From NCBI GenBank assembly GCA_025526915.1, contig JAHLKH010000173.1:1-60155 (forward strand): DNA of 60,155 nt, given 5' to 3'. This stretch comes from Entophlyctis helioformis (lineage: Eukaryota; Chytridiomycota; Chytridiomycetes; Chytridiales; Chytriomycetaceae). Both the position numbers and the translations under genes were made by a program. A model generated the notes under the pieces. That model was not told the DNA's origin. It ran no database searches and saw only the letters and a list, made by a program, of their open reading frames with translations. Below are positions 3,316 to 60,155 of the stretch, piece by piece (position 1 is the stretch's first letter; each line of letters starts with the position of its first letter).

Positions 3316-6300
3316 ATGGGCGACCACCAGCCAAACGTGCATCAGCCAAAGGCAAAGAACCAGCAGCCGCAGGGCGAGGTGCGTGCGTGCGTGCGTGCGT
3401 GCGTGTGCTGCCTGCTGCCTGCTGTCTGCTGTTTGTATGCGTGTGTGTGTGCGTGTGTGTGCGTATGTGTGTGCTGCCCTGTGCTGCCCAGTGCTGCCTG
3501 CCAGCCAAAGCATCCCGCATCCCACATCCACATCTGCGTCTCCATCTGCATCTGCGTCTGCGTCTGCATCCACTGACTGACACCTGCCGTTCGGTCGTGC
3601 TGTTCTGCCTTGTGCTGTTCCCTTGGCGCCGATGCGTCTGTGCATCTGCCCGCCTGCCTGCGTTTGTCTGCGTTTGTCTGCGTCTGTCTGCGTCTGTCTG
3701 CCTGTCTGCCTGTCTGCCCGCCGCCCGCCTGCCTGCACTCGGCGTGGCTTCTCGTCCGTCCGCTGCCTTGTCCGTCCGCTGCATTCGCCAACAAACGGAT
3801 CGCTCCGTCCGTCCGTCCGTCCGTCTGTCCGTCTGCCTGCCTGCCTGTGATCGACACACACCACCACCACAACAACCACCTGCATGTAGTTGGCAGCGCT
3901 GCTGCAGAGCCGCGGCGCGTGGGATCCCGAAGACTTTGCGCTGCCCGCCAAGGACATCAGCCGCTCGTCCAGCGCTCCTCCCACGCAGCTCATGATGCCG
4001 CAGGACTTTGTCAAGGTACTCGCTGTGCTCCTGCAAACGATCGCTGCCCCCTCCATCCCCGCCTGCCTGCCTGCCCATTGCCTGCCTGCCTGCTGCGTCG
4101 TCCAATGTGCGGCCACTGTGCGGCCACTGCCACGCGGTCTCGGCCTCTGATGCTTTCCTTGCGATCACCTGGCATCCCCTGGCATCCCCTGGCATCCGCT
4201 GGCTTCCTCTTCGATCCCTCCTCAATCACAACTCCCCTCCCCTCCCCTCCCACATCCCGGCCCGCTCCGACTGACATGCCCATTCGCCACTCGCAACCTC
4301 CTCGCCATGCCCTGCAGCAAAACTCCCACTACCAGAACGGCGGCTATGGCAACCAGGAGGATCTGGATCCCAGACTCGACCCGGACTACGCCGCCTACTA
4401 CCTGCAGAACGCCCGCCACGATCCCCGCCTCCCGCCTCCCTTCTACCCCAACAACGGCAACGGTGGTGGCCACAGTGGCAGCGGCAACGGCAGCAACAAC
4501 GGCGGCCACTCTTGGCAGGTGTGGGGCCCTCCCCCTCCTGGCGGCAAGCCCCGCTCCAAGCACGACTCGCCCATGACGCCCCAGCCGCGTCCATCGGATC
4601 ACTTTGGCTTCCACCAGCAAGAGGCATGTCGACTCGGATGAGGCTTTGTGCTGCTGTGTGTGATCGCAGCCCGACTGACTCGTTTGGCCGTCCCTCTCAT
4701 CCATAGGATCCCAGCGCTGGCTACTTTTCTCAGCGTCCGTCGTCGTCTTCCCGCATGGGCCCGGCCGTGTCGCCGTGGGCCAAGAACGACATGCCGTCGC
4801 CGATCGGCATGCGTCCCAGTGGTCCGGGCGATGCAGTCAACTCGCCCCGACGACACAACAACTTTGGCATCCAGCGCGAAGACTTTCCGCGCACGCCGTC
4901 GCCTGGCTTTGTGTCGCGTCGCGGCACCGATGGCCCGCCCAACAGCATGCACGATGTGCTGCGCGACCATGGCCATGGCAGCCCAGAGGACGAGCAGCGC
5001 ATGGCTGCTGTCATTAATGCTGCCCTCGAGGGTGGCCGCGACGACGGCATCCACAACCCTGTTCCACGTGCCTCTTCGACTCCGCCTGGCCGTATGCACT
5101 TTGGCAACCCGCGTGGTGGCAACGACATTCCGCATGACGTCTTGTATGCGATGAAGGGCATGAACATTGACGTGAGTGCTCGTCGGTCTGTTGGGTTTGT
5201 GCCGCCTATCTTGCTGTCCCCTTTTCTCACGCTGACAGTCCATGTGCAGGAAGAGTCCCGCGGCTATGGCCATGCCCACAATGGCGGCGGCGGCGGCGGC
5301 CCCAGCGACCCCAGCGGAAAGCCATCCAAGATCTCGACCCTGCGCATGGAAAAGTCATTCGAGGGACCTCGCAGTGCCACAGCGTTCCTTGGAGGCCAGG
5401 GCTATTTTGGCTACGGAGCTCCGACTCAGCGAGGTACGCGTCTGGCAGTCCTGTAGCCAAGGCTGCATCCCGCACTGACCATGGATGCAACCCACAGAGC
5501 TCAACATGCTGGCGGCGCTCGAGTTGCAGCAGCGCGCGTCGCGTGGCGGCATGTTTGATGCCGAGACCATCTTCCCACCGGACCGTCCCGCCAGTGCACA
5601 GGGCCGTTTCACCAACACCAACGGCCGTATCGGCGGTGCCCCGCCTGGCTTTGCCGAAGGCGGCTATGGAAACAGCGGGGGTTTCAACGACTACCGCCAG
5701 GGCGGTGTTGGTGGCGGTGGTGGTGGCGACAGCTACATGAACCCCGCCATGGCGCAGGCACTCGCCACGCTGTCGGCAGCCGGTAACCTGACGCCGCAGC
5801 AGGTGCAGCAGATCCAGATCCAAATGGCTCTCAATGCGGCTCGCAGCCCCGGTGGAGCCAGCCCTGCCACGCCTATTGGCGGCATGGCCCCACGCGACAA
5901 CAAGTCCAAGGTACGTTGCTTGTTGGCATGGATCGCTGGTAAGCGGGATCTGCGGTACTCACACTCGGCCTCTTGCTTTCCGTTGTTCCCTCCACCGGCT
6001 CCTCTCGAGCAGCTGCGTCGCGACTTCAACTCGCCCACCAACGGGTCATTCCCCGCCCCTGCGAGCGGATCCCGTCGCGAGGGCCGCGGCGACCTGCAGA
6101 GCCCCAGTGGCGCCATCAACCCGGACCTCAACATTGTGCGCTCGGCCCTGCTGGAAGAGTTCCGCAACAACAAGAACAAGAAATACGAGCTGCGCGACAT
6201 TGTGGGCAGCATCGTCGAGTTCTCTGGCGACCAGCACGGCTCGCGCTTTATCCAGCAGAAGCTTGAGACCGCCACAAGCGAGGAGAAGCAGCTCGTCTTT

Positions 6301-7179
6301 GATGAGATTCTGCCCAACGCCCTGCAGCTCATGACGGACGTGTTTGGCAACTACGTCATCCAAAAGTTTTTCGAGCACGGCAACCAGGCCCAGAAGCAGA
6401 TTCTCGCCAAGCAGATGGACGGCCATGTGCTCTCGCTCTCTCTGCAAATGTACGGCTGCCGCGTCGTGCAAAAGGCGTTTGAGCAGGTGCTCGTTGACCA
6501 GCAGGCGCAGCTCATCAAGGAGCTCGAGGGCCATGTGCTCAAGTGTGTCAAGGACCAGAACGGCAACCACGTCATCCAAAAGGCGATTGAGCGCATCCCT
6601 GCGGAGCACATTCGGTTCATTATCGAGGCGTTCCACGGCCAGGTGTACGCGCTCGCGACGCACCCGTACGGCTGCCGCGTCATCCAGCGCATCTTTGAGC
6701 ACTGCGCCGAGGAGGACTCGCTCCCACTTCTTGAGGAGCTTCACCGCTACGCCATCAGTCTCATCCAGGACCAGTACGGCAACTACGTCATCCAGCACAT
6801 TCTCGAGCGCGGCCGGCAGTCGGACAAGGAGTTTGTCATTTCCAAGGTCAAGGGCCAGGTGCTGACCATGTCCAAGCACAAGTTTGCGTCCAACGTGGTC
6901 GAAAAGTGCGTGGCGTTTGGCAGCATCACGGACCGCCAAGAGTTTATCGACGAGGTCGCGACGACCAAGTCGGACGGCACGACGCCGCTCTTTACGATGA
7001 TGAAGGACCAGTTTGCCAACTATGTCGTGCAAAAGATGCTCGACGTGGCCGACGAGCCGCAAAAGATTATGCTCGTCACCAAGATCAAGCCGCAGCTGCC
7101 GTCGCTCAAAAAGTTTACCTATGGCAAGCACCTCATCTCCAAGGTCGAGAAGCTGATTGTCGTGTACAACATTGACTAG
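3316..7179 (+). CDS. Pumilio-family (PUF) RNA-binding protein
   Basis: Cytoplasmic post-transcriptional repressor of the PUM/Puf3 type that binds UGUA-containing 3' UTRs. Seven exons: 3316-3378, 3890-4015, 4318-4623, 4707-5171, 5250-5433, 5498-5910 and 6013-7179, giving 907 residues. The third intron (4624-4706) uses a GC donor (GAG|GCATGT); no in-phase GT exists. The N-terminal half is low complexity (Gly, Asn, Pro, Gln), as in PUM proteins. The C-terminal half holds eight PUF repeats with cores [69 protein letters not shown] and ANYVVQKML. The RNA-reading triplets are SRQ, NYQ, CRQ, NHQ, CRQ, NYQ, SNE and NYQ, the same as in human PUM1/2, so the predicted site is UGUANAUA. It is convergent with SOG2. 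Confidence 0.95.
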
Positions 7180-53972: not shown

Positions 53973-54424
53973 CTAGTGAGTAGCAGGGCTGGTGGCAGCA
54001 CCGGGAACAGCCGGCGATCCAAGGCCAAGCATGTGCTTGAGGCTTTGGCTCAGGTCGTGCAGTCCAGAGTCGTCGTGGGGAACAGCAGACAAGAGAGGCG
54101 GGTCGCGTTCAAAGTGCTGCGTCTGGCCGTAGCTGCCAAGCGCGTGTTGAAGGTGGTGTGCGTGCGGCTGCTGCTGCTGCTGCTGGCTTAGAGCCGACAG
54201 GTAGGCTTGAACATGCGGAGGAGGGCCGTTGTAGGGAACATGTGCTGGATGCCCAAAGCCGGGCTGCGGCATGCTTCCAGGGAAAGGCATGACGCCGTGA
54301 GCCTGGGGAAATGGCGGCATTTGGCGCTGCTGGAAGAACAACGGGTGCGCGCCGTGGGGATGCATACCCGGCAGCTGCTGCATATGCATCTGGGGAGAAT
54401 GATGCGGCATGTGCTGTTGGAATG

Positions 54425-54515
<91 letters not shown>

Positions 54516-55625
54516 GTAATGAGGCGGCTGCTGACGGGACTGCGATTGCGACTGCGATTGCGACTGCGATTGCTGCTGCTGCGCGTGCACCGGATGGTCT
54601 GGCACGGTCCCGGCCGGAGGAGCAGCAGCAGCAGCGGTCAGCATGGCGAGAAGATTGCGCGACTTGATGCGAAGGTTTGCGTCCTGATCGTCGCCAGTGT
54701 CGTCCATGCCGAACATGCCGTGCTGGCCATCGTAATGATCTGGCGGCTTGTGGGTGCCCCACTCCGAGTTGCCGTTGCCTGCCCATGGCGAAGGCGCAGC
54801 GACCGACTTTGGCGTTGGAGACGCATGAAACGCTTGCATGTGCAGCTGGCCAGGCGTGTGCTGGTGCAAGTACGGCTGATTCTGGCTCTGGGGGTTCATG
54901 TGCAGGTGATGCGAATGCGAGGGACTCTGCAGATCTGCCACCAGCAACGATGGCTCCTTGTCGACCGAGCGGGAGAAGACTGGAATGGGCAGCGCAGACG
55001 GTGCGGGCGAGTTCTGGAACGTGGCGCCAGCATAGCGGTCAGACGAGAGCACTGACGACTGCGACGACGACACAGAGGTCGGTGCTGCAGCATTGTCGTT
55101 GCTGGGCTTGCTGGATCCCGGAGACGGGCGAGGCTGCTGGCTGCTGTTCTTTTGTGCAGAGCGAGGCGCAGATCCAGACGCTGTCGAGACAGCAGCGGAT
55201 GCGGCAGTTGGGCCACTGGCCACAGTGATGGGATTGGCTGCAGCGCCAGCGGCTCCACTGCCATTTGCAGGATTGTTGCCGTTGCGGCCACCCTTGTCGT
55301 TGCCACGTTGCCGTTGCTTTGGCTGTTGCTGCTGCTGCTGCTGTCCTTGCTTGTCCTGCTTCGGCTGCTGCTGCTTGTCTTGCTTGTCTTGCCTGGCCTG
55401 CTTGTCCTGTTTGGGTTGTTGCTGCTGTTGCGGTTGAGTGTCCAGCGACTTGGCGGACTCGGGCCGAGGCGGCTCTTGCTCAGAAAGCTGCGACTTCTTG
55501 CTGCTCTTGGGCGTTCGGTTGGGTTTGGCTGCTGGCGAGCGACCGCCGCTGCCGTTGCTCTGGCCGTTGCTCTGGCCGTTGCCTTTGTTGGCGTTGCCGC
55601 TGCTTGTCGATACAACTGCCGACAT
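53973..55625 (-). CDS. PNRC/Edc1-like mRNA decapping-associated protein
   Basis: A single uninterrupted frame of 550 residues, mostly disordered (Gln, Ser, Pro, Asn, Lys). The recognisable element is a proline-rich PNRC motif, YAGATFQNSPAPSALPIPVF, followed by a short ENLL-type helix segment (RIKSRNLLAMLTAAA). Proteins with this motif (PNRC2, yeast Edc1/Edc2) bind Dcp1 and activate decapping in P-bodies. The N-terminus is Lys/Gln-rich with SGGRSPAAKPNRTPKSSKKS. A poly-Gln tract of about 30 residues is encoded at about 54424-54523, mixing CAA and CAG. The stop lies 92 bp before the CET1 start on the same strand. Confidence 0.7.
54424..54523. repeat. Poly-glutamine trinucleotide repeat
   Basis: CTG/TTG triplets on the plus strand, read as CAG/CAA (Gln) in the PNRC-motif protein. 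The CAA interruptions are regular, and a second Ser-Gln repeat follows at about 54535-54575. Confidence 0.9.
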
Positions 55626-55745
55626 GATATCCTACCACATCCATTCGCATCAGCGTCGTGCATGCGTGCAGTGCAGGGTGGCACTCACGAGAGAATTGTT
55701 TAACAAAGTTATCCTTGCTGAGGGGTGGGCAATAGGGCGAGGGAA

Positions 55746-55763
55746 TGCCGGCAGTTGCCGGCA
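55746..55763. other. GC-rich palindrome (TGCCGGCA repeated)
   Basis: TGCCGGCA, two bases, TGCCGGCA. Each half is itself a palindrome, so the site can be read as a direct repeat or as a hairpin with a 2-4 nt loop. Confidence 0.7.
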
Positions 55764-55806
55764 AAATGCCCGACATCCAAACAATTACCAAGAATCATTG
55801 AATTAA

Positions 55807-55828
55807 ATTCGACCCAGAGGCGTCGAAT
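55807..55828. other. Hairpin downstream of the Fanzor gene
   Basis: A perfect 7-bp stem, ATTCGAC paired with GTCGAAT, with an 8-nt loop, about 130 bp past the Fanzor stop on the minus strand. It is a candidate RNA structure only. Confidence 0.5.
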
Positions 55829-55960
55829 GTAAGGCAAGCATAACACACGATTGAAGGTTCGAGTCAGCAACGAGCATGCGACGACAGGCGGGCGAGGCAT
55901 ACCAGCGAGATGCTTACCTTCGTAAAGTGACCCTATTGGTCGATCGGGAGGTGCCCCGAT

Positions 55961-58900
55961 TCATATTGTGCTGGAAGTCACAGCACGTGGAGTTGCATGT
56001 GCCTTGCTGGCTCGTGACCCGCGGACAGACCGTGTCCGTGGTGGAGGCGGCAGGACGATGGGCGGATCGGGTGGTCTTGGAGGCCGCTGGTTGACAGGCA
56101 GCTCAGGTACTGGAAGCTGCTGGACGACAGGCTGACTGGCCTTTGTGTGCGTCAAGTAGAGCGGCCGCTCTCCATCGAGCAAATGCCCCAGTGCGACCAT
56201 TCCGATGTTGGTGGCTCCAAGCACGTCTCGGTGGTAGACGGCCTTGCATGCTGTGCACTCGTAGCGTCGCAGGTTGGTGCGGTTCTTGTATGGGATGCGC
56301 TGCTTGCACTGCGGGCACATCTGGCTGGTCAGGTTCTCGTTGCAGCGGTAGATCTGTGTGTGTGTGTGCATGATCGTGTGGTCAGTTGGTGCACAGATGG
56401 ATGGATGGATGGATGGATGCAGCGTGGCATCAGACGCACATAGGCATATCCAGACGACCGCAGATGCCTGATGAGAAACTTCTCAAACACTGCATGCCGG
56501 CCACCCTCGCCAGTAAAGTCGATGCCAATGCCCAGACAACGGGAATGTCTTCTCTGCCGACTTTTTTGGATCGAAGGGCAGGCCTTGAGACGCAGGAGAT
56601 GCGCGCTTGCCAGTGGTCGATCCTGCCAGCTTCATGATGCCTTCAAGAGCATGTCCGCGAATAGACATGCTGTTGCTGCGCATGGAAAAACGCTCGGCCT
56701 TGACCTTCTGTGGAATGCCATGCCATGCCACTCAATGCAATCAGCAGGCGATCAAGCAGCTTGGCGATCATGCCGATATGCATTCAGAAGCAGAGAAAAC
56801 ATACCTTTGCATTCAGGAATGTCGAGCAGTACGCCAAGCAGCGAAGATCCCAAAACACTCGCTCACCTGCTGAGACGCCTGGATCGGCATGCTTTGCCAT
56901 CTTGAAGGCAATCGCCTCATGGATGTCGGCTGCCTTGGCATATCGGCCATTGAACCTGGCACAAGAGACAGGCGCTGTGAGTTGATCTACCCAAGAGTGC
57001 ACAGAGTCATTGCATACATACCATCGCAGAAGTTCGCGCTCAGCTTGAAATAAGCCAGAGGAGAGCACATAGTTGGACTCGTGCGTGTATGTGCCGGTCT
57101 GGACATTGACCAGCATGCTGGACGCGCCAAACAGGTACCGCTGGCCCCAGTCTAGACTGACAACGCGAACAGTCTGGTAGCCCTTGTCGGCGAGCAGCTT
57201 GTTGGCATCAGCAACATCAGGTAGTCGCTGGGATGCATTGAAGTTGCGCTTGGCCTGTCATGCCATGGCATGAGTGAGGGATGTGCAATGCATGTGCACC
57301 AATGCGCGAGGTTAGCATGCAAGTGACATACAAGGTTTGGCACTTTTGGCTTGGCAGCTGTGGATGGCATGTCAGTTGGTGTGGACAGCAAGTACGCGTC
57401 TGGATTGGCACAGCAACTCACATTCGCCGTTGAGGTAATCAGGGACACAATCAGCCTCATTGGCAAGACTGGGAAGCTCGCATGAAGACGCCATGTCGGG
57501 ACCTGCGAAGCAAGGCGGCGGTTAGAATTGATGTGTGCACCAAAGCATCCAAGCACGGCACATACTGCAAGGCGACTCTGGACGGTCTGTGCGATAATCG
57601 CGAACCAACTGGCCGACGCTGTATCCGTTCGAGATGACGCTACTCATCCGTGTCCGTTTGGTTGGTCTCGCTGGGGGTAGAGCATCAACCGCAGCCTGGA
57701 TGAAGTCCTTGCGCTCCTTGCCACGCAGACGCTGCTTCTTGGCCGCTCGCGTCGCCTTGGCTTTGGCCACTTTCTTGGCCTTGGTGTTGGCTGCCTCCAT
57801 TTCCGCTTCGGCTTCTGCCGGCGTTTGATACCGGCCTTTCTTGGGGCGGAGGCCGGGAAGCAGGACGTCCATGACGCAATTCTCGCGACTCGAGCTGAAT
57901 GCCTTCTTGATCTCGCTGTCGGTTGACTTGAGTGTCAACTTTTTCGAGCCAGGCTCTTTGAGAAAGGTGGATTGTTAGTATCAAATCATAAAAAGATGGC
58001 ACAAACAGGCAGTGCAACTTACTGATCGCAGCAAGTAGCTCCTTTCGCAGTGCTTGCAAAGCAGGATCCTGCCCCTTGCTGTCGCGCTCCTTCTTTGTCC
58101 CCATCACAGACCAAAAGAGTGTCCTCTCTGTGATGAGAACGAAAGGGTCGCAGCTTGCCGGCTGCGGGCAAAGCTTGATGCTCTGTCTCCCAGCGAGATC
58201 GCGCAGCGCATGGAACTTGCCGGGATGCGACAGCGACTCACTGAGCACAATCGCAGCAAGCTCGTCTAGCTCTGGAGGTAGCACGACAACGGCCTTGCCC
58301 TCTGTGGCTGAGGAAGAGCTGGATGCTGCGGCCTTCTTACTGCGTGGCTTCTTTGGTGCGTCCTTGCCCTCCGTGGCTGGCGATGGGCTCGGTGCCGCGC
58401 TCTCGGTGGTGGCAGCCTTCCCGACACATGGCTTCTTGGCATCCTTGGCAGCGGCGGCCTTAGCAACGCGTGGCTTCTTGGCGGCTTTGGCAGCAGCACC
58501 GTTGGCAGCCGTGGCGTCCTTGGCAGTGGTGTCCTTGCCGACGCGTACCTTCTTGGCTACGCCGCCCTTGTCGGTGATTGAAGTGCTGGACGCGGTCCGC
58601 TTGTGGGTTGGCGCGGGGTCCTTGCCGACGCGTACCTTCTTGGCTACGCCGCCCTTGTCGGTGATTGAAGTGCTGGACGCGGTCCGCTTGTGGGTTGGCA
58701 CGGCGTCCTCAGTGGCAGCCTTCCCAACGCGTGGCTTCTTGGTGGCTATGGCAGCAGCAAGCCTGGCGTCCCTGGTGGCTTTGGCAGCTGCATCCCTGAC
58801 GGCTTTGGCAGCTGCACGCTCGGCGTCCCTGGCGGCTTTGGCAGCTGCACGCTCGGCGTCCTTGGCAGCTTTGGCAGCTGCGCGCTTGGCGTCCCTGACG

Positions 58901-60155
58901 GCTTTGGCAGCTGCGCGCTTGGCGTCCCTGGCGGCGTTGGCAGCTACACGCTTGGGATCCTTGGCGTCTGCGGCGTCCTTGGCAGCTTTGGCAGCAGCGC
59001 GCTTGGCGGCGTTGGCAGCAGCACGCTTGGCGGTCTCAGCGTCCCTGGCTTTCTTGATCAGGTACGTAGTCCACGCCGTCGCTTGCTTGGGAGTTGAACC
59101 GCGCACAAGCTTGAAGCACGCTGCAAACACCAGGTCGGACTGGCTTCCAATGTAGTGCTGCGCCAGCATGGCACACACACTCTTGGCGAGGTTGCTGAAG
59201 ATATCATTCGCAGCTTCCGCGCAGAGGCTGCCGTCAAGCCTGTCTGGTAGAGCCGGCTCCTGCGCGACGGCTGGCGGCATTTTGGGCTGTGGTATGCCTT
59301 TCTTGATCGCATTGGCGTGCACCATGCCTCGCGTCCATGACCGGTGCATCATCAGCTGCATGGCCGTGACGAGCCACGCGTTGATCGTGCTCATATTGAG
59401 ACCCGGCTGGGCCATCTGCTTGCCACTGAAAATGTACGACAGGTGGCGCAGCATACAGGCCATGGACGTCTCGCCTCCAGAAGCGCTGCTGATGATTTCC
59501 ATGAGCAGCTGGTTCGCTGTTGGCACCGCCGGTGCTGCTCCTGGCTGCTCAGACTCGTCGGCGTCCTCGGCGTCCTCAGACTCGTCGGCGTCCTCAGACT
59601 CGTCGGCGTCCTCGATGTCCTCAATGTCCTCATACTCGTCGGCGTCCTCGCTGTCCTTTGACTTCTTGACCCTCTCGTGCAGACATATCTCGAGTCTCAT
59701 GCCCGTGGCGAGTGGCACCGGATCGCCAAAGCGAGGATTGCTGCTCTCTGGGTTGTACAAACTTGAGCCATACATGATCCACGCGTCGATGCCCTTTCTG
59801 AGCGTAAATCGGCCGGACAGGAAATCCTCCCTTGACACGCCACCGGGGCAGTTGGTGCCGTCTGAGTTGCTGGGATCGTCGAGGGCTCGGATATCATCGT
59901 TGCTCAAGAAGCAGAACCCGGTCTGCTTTTCTTGGAACCACTGGTAAACGTGGTATTTTGGCGGGAGGGGCGTGTCTTGAACGATCTCGAGGAGCTCTTC
60001 AAGGACGGCACCAATGACGATAAGGCCGGCCTGCCGAGTACCGACGGTGAAACGAGTACACACGGGTAAACTTGTCCTCGACGATCAGATCCCGCGTCCA
60101 TGTCTCTGGCGTCTTCCTGCCATGAAGGCCATGGAATCTGACGCGCAATGGATCA
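55961..60155 (-). CDS. Fanzor RNA-guided nuclease (eukaryotic TnpB homologue), 5' end beyond window
   Basis: Programmable RuvC nuclease of the TnpB/Fanzor family. Exons in order: beyond 60155 to 60062, 59994-58023, 57955-57566, 57502-57422, 57357-57332 (26 nt), 57254-57022, 56955-56805, 56707-56627, 56553-56440 and 56353-55961; about 1,177 residues are visible. RuvC-I: VVSLDWGQRYLFGAS. RuvC-II region: CLGIGIDFTGEGGRHAVFEK. Zinc ribbon: NENLTSQMCPQC and YECTACKAVYHRD, running into RuvC-III (HRDVLGATNIG). Upstream, SSVISNGYSVGQLVRDY matches the pre-RuvC part of Fanzors. The second exon carries an acidic Glu/Asp run and a Lys/Ala-rich insertion with a duplicated 29-residue unit. The Pro-rich C-terminal tail is basic at its end. 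The intron 56554-56626 must be GC-AG (CTG|GCAGGA); otherwise the frame is broken there. The 67-nt first visible intron is inferred. Confidence 0.82.
58531..58699. repeat. Two 82-bp identical direct repeats inside the Fanzor coding sequence
   Basis: 58531-58612 and 58618-58699 are identical with an 87-bp period. Translated, they give two copies of a basic unit containing THKRTASSTSITDKGG and VAKKVRVGKD. The perfect identity implies recent duplication or gene conversion. Confidence 0.9.
58741..59045. repeat. Lys/Ala-rich tandem repeats in the Fanzor N-terminal region
   Basis: Units of about 30 bp encode AKRAAAKAAKDA and RDAERAAAK variants, a histone-H1-like or alpha-helical array. The neighbouring blocks at 58420-58530 are similar (KKPRVAKAAAAKD). 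Confidence 0.85.

Follow-up and report, generated by a model that had tools for sequence, protein, structure and literature searches.

A high-copy Fanzor-bearing transposon in the chytrid Entophlyctis helioformis and the putative FEN-like nuclease gene that it carries

We analysed a stretch of 60,155 nucleotides of the Entophlyctis helioformis genome (the whole of contig JAHLKH010000173.1 of assembly GCA_025526915.1; hereafter the window), one end of which carries a gene for a Fanzor-type, putatively RNA-guided nuclease. This gene is very likely a decayed copy of a high-copy E. helioformis transposon that bears both a Fanzor gene and a gene for a nuclease resembling the FEN/XPG superfamily. 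Of this DNA transposon, which is approximately 9.9 kb long, the window contains the 3'-terminal 4.4 kb; the contig ends at 60155 and so lacks the upstream part, which measures about 5.4 kb where copies are complete.

On the minus strand at 55961-60155, the motifs VVSLDWG, GIDFTGEGG, CPQC...CTAC and HRDVLGATNIG are encoded in this order, as a sequence-only reading of the window had claimed. Pfam PF07282 (TNB zinc ribbon) matched the last exon of the window gene with E = 2e-10 (41.1 bits, cut-off 26.3). The founding Fanzor/TnpB motif, D-X(125,275)-[TS][TS]-XX-C4-X(5,50)-RD (PMC3627910), was found in the sister copy L010, with 191 residues from D to TS and 5 from C4 to RD; the window copy encodes all parts of this motif, but not in one frame. 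We then compared 43 copies, which are those fetched and not a random sample of the 150 copies described below. Exon E was seen in 40 of them, and its RuvC-I motif was DWG in 38 of these 40. The pattern E-x6-C-x2-C-x12-18-C-x2-C-x4-8-D, taken from PMC10711439, was present in one frame in 40 of the 43 copies and in 41 when pieces were joined across frame breaks, and in L045 the shifted glutamate is changed to lysine. The distance from the RuvC-I D to the shifted E was 184-188 residues, and exons E-H were all seen in 40 of the 43 copies and open in 15. The catalytic signature of a divergent, intron-rich Fanzor is kept in most copies read.

To judge from the sequence, the RuvC-II glutamate is probably the one in NENLTSQMC, which precedes the zinc ribbon by six residues. 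The DFTGEGG region, also listed in the sequence-only reading, is indeed encoded in order, but it is probably not the site of this glutamate. In PMC10711439, a rearranged glutamate position is described for Fanzors, DPG is called near exclusive at RuvC-I in Fanzors, and D-phi-G is found at RuvC-I of typical TnpB. The protein studied here therefore resembles typical TnpB at RuvC-I and resembles Fanzors and pro-Fanzors in its glutamate six residues before the zinc ribbon, a combination that departs from the Fanzor DPG (PMC10711439). Because its motif is DWG and not DPG, we named it a divergent Fanzor-type protein and placed it in neither Fanzor1 nor Fanzor2. When the Fanzor exons were the query, a PDB profile search returned nothing below E 0.1 and no chain named Fanzor up to E 10, and four of its five weak rows were RNA-guided nucleases matched at the zinc ribbon. 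Solved Fanzors are present in the PDB. In addition, NCBIfam TnpB and PADLOC Cas12 models matched the zinc ribbon weakly, and a protein database search with the catalytic half found three proteins, all from E. helioformis. The deposited E. helioformis gene models P0001-P0003 end ahead of the zinc ribbon, and the annotation therefore hides the Fanzor signature.

The zinc-ribbon profile detected at least 150 copies in the 29.57-Mb genome, all above the cut-off (150 scored of 205 candidates), and a search with the window DNA, in which the best 40 of 314 candidates were scored, gave approximately 10 near-full copies (94-97%) as well as many partial copies. The near-full copies share a common 3' end; in the window, the last element base is 55720. 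When three copies were followed to the 5' end, C15 and C121 measured 9.8-9.9 kb, and C144 measured approximately 8.7 kb after internal loss; complete copies begin with GAGGGG and end with CCCCTC. Judged by eye, 8 of 15 end pairs carried a direct repeat of at least 9 bases, consistent with a 9-bp target duplication. A direct repeat of 9-10 bp abutted both ends in six of the 15 (C264, in which the last element base differs, C178, C177, C121, C144 and C38), while C3 and C82 had 9-13 identical bases offset by 1-2 nt; in C13 and C15, the end repeats matched at 7 of 9 positions. Furthermore, 28 3' flanks of at least 30 nt represented 27 distinct sites. The common ends, the target duplications and the 27 distinct sites therefore indicate transposition, and we are nearly certain that this is a DNA transposon carrying a Fanzor-type gene. 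C89:55240-57605 is an internally deleted derivative, in which no more than about 2.4 kb separates the two element ends and the catalytic exons are retained.

Upstream of the Fanzor gene, approximately 6 kb away on the same strand, the element carries a second gene that resembles FEN1/Exo1 5' nucleases. Gene order was counted at 88 partner loci, obtained from 150 of 243 partner rows and compared with all 150 zinc-ribbon rows. A same-strand zinc-ribbon match lay no more than 12 kb downstream at 45 of the 88 loci (at 5.5-7 kb in 39 of them) and upstream at none; at 4 loci the match was on the opposite strand. In an alignment of nine partner sequences (8 of 13 assembled loci plus P0005), the acidic motifs D, D, E-x-D, D-x-D and D occurred in order wherever the region was present, and EAD, DSD and the later D were invariant in the nine subfamily sequences. 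Pfam XPG_I_2 matched eight of the nine with a best E of 0.0011, the scores shown being 13.9-16 bits and under the cut-off of 24.2. Searches with a predicted structural model returned FEN/Exo1/XPG/Xrn-type nucleases at Foldseek ranks 1-25 and in all 50 VIA-align rows shown. It is very probable that the partner belongs to the FEN superfamily. The gene is like FEN1/Exo1/XPG 5' nucleases in the order of its acidic motifs and possibly in its predicted core fold, and unlike them in being transposon-borne at many loci, in scoring below the curated Pfam cut-off and in having relatives found only in E. helioformis. No relative outside this species was present among the protein database matches listed, in an exact-word search that may miss distant ones, and none was found in viral contigs. 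In the C15 element, a long CA/CACG-rich simple repeat lies approximately 2.0-2.2 kb from the 5' end, just upstream of the partner gene start; its length differs between the C15 and C121 copies.

Exo1 resects the 5' ends of breaks. In the working that we propose for the element, a transposase would move it, as its short inverted ends and 9-bp duplications suggest, and a transcribed 3' end running into the flank would supply the guide RNA, as in characterised Fanzors. The Fanzor would cut the empty site, the FEN/Exo1-like nuclease would resect the 5' ends of the break, and repair would then copy the element back from the sister or the homologue. According to PMC10432273 and PMC10711439, Fanzors cut DNA as RNA-guided endonucleases and take their RNA from the element 3' end, and by analogy a guide RNA from the 3' end of the present element is reasonably likely. 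A resection role for the partner nuclease is proposed tentatively. The same caution applies to the whole, a self-contained cut-and-resect transposon in which the Fanzor and the element's own 5' nuclease would be a conserved unit across diverged subfamilies and the nuclease would steer break repair towards re-copying.

Instead of resecting Fanzor breaks, the partner gene could encode the element's own transposase or an integrase-like recombinase, or could process transposition intermediates, which we consider unlikely. The partner gene and the Fanzor gene are equally widespread, and no other transposase was identified with the PF10551, PF00872 or PF05699 profiles. However, the control of the PF05699 (hAT) search was silent, which makes that search uninformative, and approximately 2.2 kb at the 5' end together with a stretch between the two genes, both unassigned, could hold a transposase. 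We also know of no FEN-superfamily nuclease that acts as a transposase, which counts against this alternative. Somewhat less likely still, the partner could act on RNA, as an Xrn/Rat1-like 5'-3' processing nuclease, and serve to mature or protect the guide RNA. The 9-bp duplication fits membership of MuDR/MULE, but PF10551 and PF00872 had no match in the genome, and the element was not assigned to this group. KDZ transposase gave four matches on three contigs (C334, C271 and C396); three of the four matches contain in-frame stops.

Constraint on the Fanzor gene was estimated from the ratio of nonsynonymous to synonymous substitution rates (dN/dS) among the 15 copies open in exons E-H. The median was 0.34 when the window family was paired with other subfamilies (0.27-0.40, 54 pairs), 0.32 within the window family (15 pairs) and 0.52 among other subfamilies (36 pairs, 0.24-0.85). 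In addition, each of the exons tested, four from the Fanzor gene and three from the partner gene, differed most often at codon position 3, so that both linked genes show codon-level constraint. In one copy pair, identical and diverged blocks alternate, which by eye looks like gene conversion.

Several results weigh against the reading of an element that carries a conserved pair of nuclease genes. The dN/dS argument is weakened because, between subfamilies, the introns (medians of 0.89-0.95, gaps of 5-15%) match as well as or better than the exons (0.82-0.92), and single values among the other subfamilies reach the 0.85 given above. No intact full-length gene was found, and none of the probed copies was open in every exon probe. 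For the partner, the predicted model has a mean predicted local distance difference test score (pLDDT) of 45, no Foldseek E was below 0.001 and VIA Z was under 8; furthermore, no Pfam cut-off was reached among the rows shown, a profile search of the PDB returned nothing below E 0.1, and one NCBIfam row was recR (E 0.02). For the ends, the repeats were judged without a chance control, 4 of the 15 pairs had no duplication (C1, C98, C89 and C2), and the 3' end of C103 was not located. The 3' end showed no covariation (34 ends, z = -1.1) in a set of 34 out of 36 ends from which L025 and L043 were dropped as rearranged, 9 of 45 copies having given no end to the search pattern; its median identity between subfamilies was 0.85, not above that of introns. 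Finally, the element has no transposase identified by the profiles named above.

The features of the window copy are listed in Table 1. An eight-exon chain (A-H) with GT-AG borders throughout joins all motifs, and in two natural sister copies, L010 and L018, these borders give a reading that stays open from exon B up to the stop codon. The sequence-only reading was right that the gene is intron-rich and of Fanzor/TnpB type; its estimate of about ten exons and over 1,170 residues gives way to eight exons that fit, with the upstream part missing. Nor is the copy apparently intact, as had been thought. Its spliced frame breaks in exon G (~56,52x-56,55x) and stops ahead of the zinc ribbon, and exon A is in two frames with a switch near 60,050; single frame breaks in this copy may be sequencing errors. 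A search for the 5' partner of the presumed duplication AGCAAGGAT gave no match, and an Rfam scan of the window gave none at gathering scores. Extra stretches of ~264 bases in exon B of L027 and ~186 bases in exon C of L028 look like small nested insertions.

Table 1. Coordinates of the transposon copy and its parts in the window.
Feature	Position	Strand	Basis
Fanzor transposon copy, 3' part	55720..60155	-	94-97% homology with ~10 near-full copies stops at 55720; sharp common CCCCTC end
Terminal CCCCTC (GAGGGG on + strand)	55720..55725	-	matches GAGGGG at 5' end of complete copies
Presumed target-site duplication AGCAAGGAT, 3' side only	55711..55719	-	placed by analogy with sister copies
3' noncoding end, candidate guide RNA source	55720..55960	-	present in sister copies
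Exon H: E of NENLTSQ, C4 zinc ribbon, HRDVLGATNIG, stop	55961..56353	-	PF07282 and splice model
Exon G: GIDFTGEGG, frame broken in window copy	56440..56707	-	splice model, exon probes
Exon F, open	56805..56955	-	splice model, exon probes
Exon E: VVSLDWG, RuvC-I aspartate, open	57022..57254	-	splice model, exon probes
Exon D, 26 bases	57332..57357	-	splice model; identical borders in L010, L018, L028
Exon C	57422..57502	-	splice model
Exon B	57566..57955	-	splice model
Exon A region: long N-terminal extension, repetitive Ala/Lys/Arg-rich stretch	58023..60155	-	splice model, exon probes; start outside window

The sequence-only reading had taken the gene for a candidate functional or domesticated nuclease. 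A Fanzor that had been domesticated here, or that served the host in some other way, would agree with the ordinary flanking genes and with the open exons B-F and H, but it is highly improbable: the gene is one of at least 150 copies, is 94-97% identical to ~10 near-full sisters, shares their transposon terminal sequence and is frame-broken in two exons, and the 28 flanks fall at 27 distinct sites. Least probable of all is that the copies form a gene family which arose through segmental duplication or redundancy of the assembly; L021 (C300) and L022 (C40) do have an identical 120-bp 3' flank, which reflects either duplication of a segment or a haplotype retained by the assembly, but 27 distinct sites, sharp common ends and target duplications in 8 of 15 pairs argue otherwise. 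The housekeeping surroundings that had been described are ordinary genes indeed, and the Fanzor gene is present as an insertion beside them. One of these neighbours, at 5479-7176 on the plus strand, encodes a Pumilio (PUF) protein with eight repeats (E = 1.1e-85). At 53973-55631 on the minus strand, there is a polyglutamine-rich frame of 552 aa, and the element end lies ~95 bp upstream of its first ATG; the insertion may affect its promoter.

Comparisons with known elements rest on PMC3627910, PMC10432273 and PMC10711439. Like the E. helioformis element, SPu-1 (SpuFz1) of Spizellomyces punctatus is a chytrid DNA transposon with inverted ends, target duplications, a TnpB-like gene and many copies, namely 42 loci that hold a complete or partial gene, plus 134 ghost loci (PMC3627910, PMC10432273). 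SPu-1 is ~2.1 kb long with one uninterrupted frame of 633 residues and TA duplications (PMC3627910, PMC10432273), whereas the E. helioformis element is ~9.9 kb long, has many introns and 9-bp duplications, encodes DWG and carries another gene for a nuclease. Some fungal Fanzor elements share the 9-bp duplications (PMC3627910); they have no transposase of their own, their inverted ends are like those of known MuDR elements, and the available passages of their description mention no nuclease partner. In the E. helioformis genome, no MULE transposase match was found. CMe-1A of Cyanidioschyzon merolae likewise reaches ~150 Fanzor copies in one genome, and it is ~3 kb long, has no inverted ends and has duplications that were not determined (PMC3627910); hundreds of Fanzor copies are mentioned in PMC10711439. 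Precedents thus exist both for some 150 Fanzor copies per genome and for 9-bp duplications at fungal Fanzor elements (PMC3627910). In the literature searched, we found no pairing of a Fanzor with a FEN-like nuclease and no E. helioformis Fanzors.

Why Fanzors ride on many unrelated eukaryotic transposons is an open question, and the pairing of a Fanzor with a 5' nuclease offers a testable reason, control over how the cut is repaired. The E. helioformis genome supplies at least 150 copies and, for the chytrids, a divergent lineage with DWG; among the 28 flanks read there are 27 different ones, and hence many candidate natural guides. If true, the cut-and-resect reading would describe a eukaryotic homing-type element with its own repair-pathway switch.

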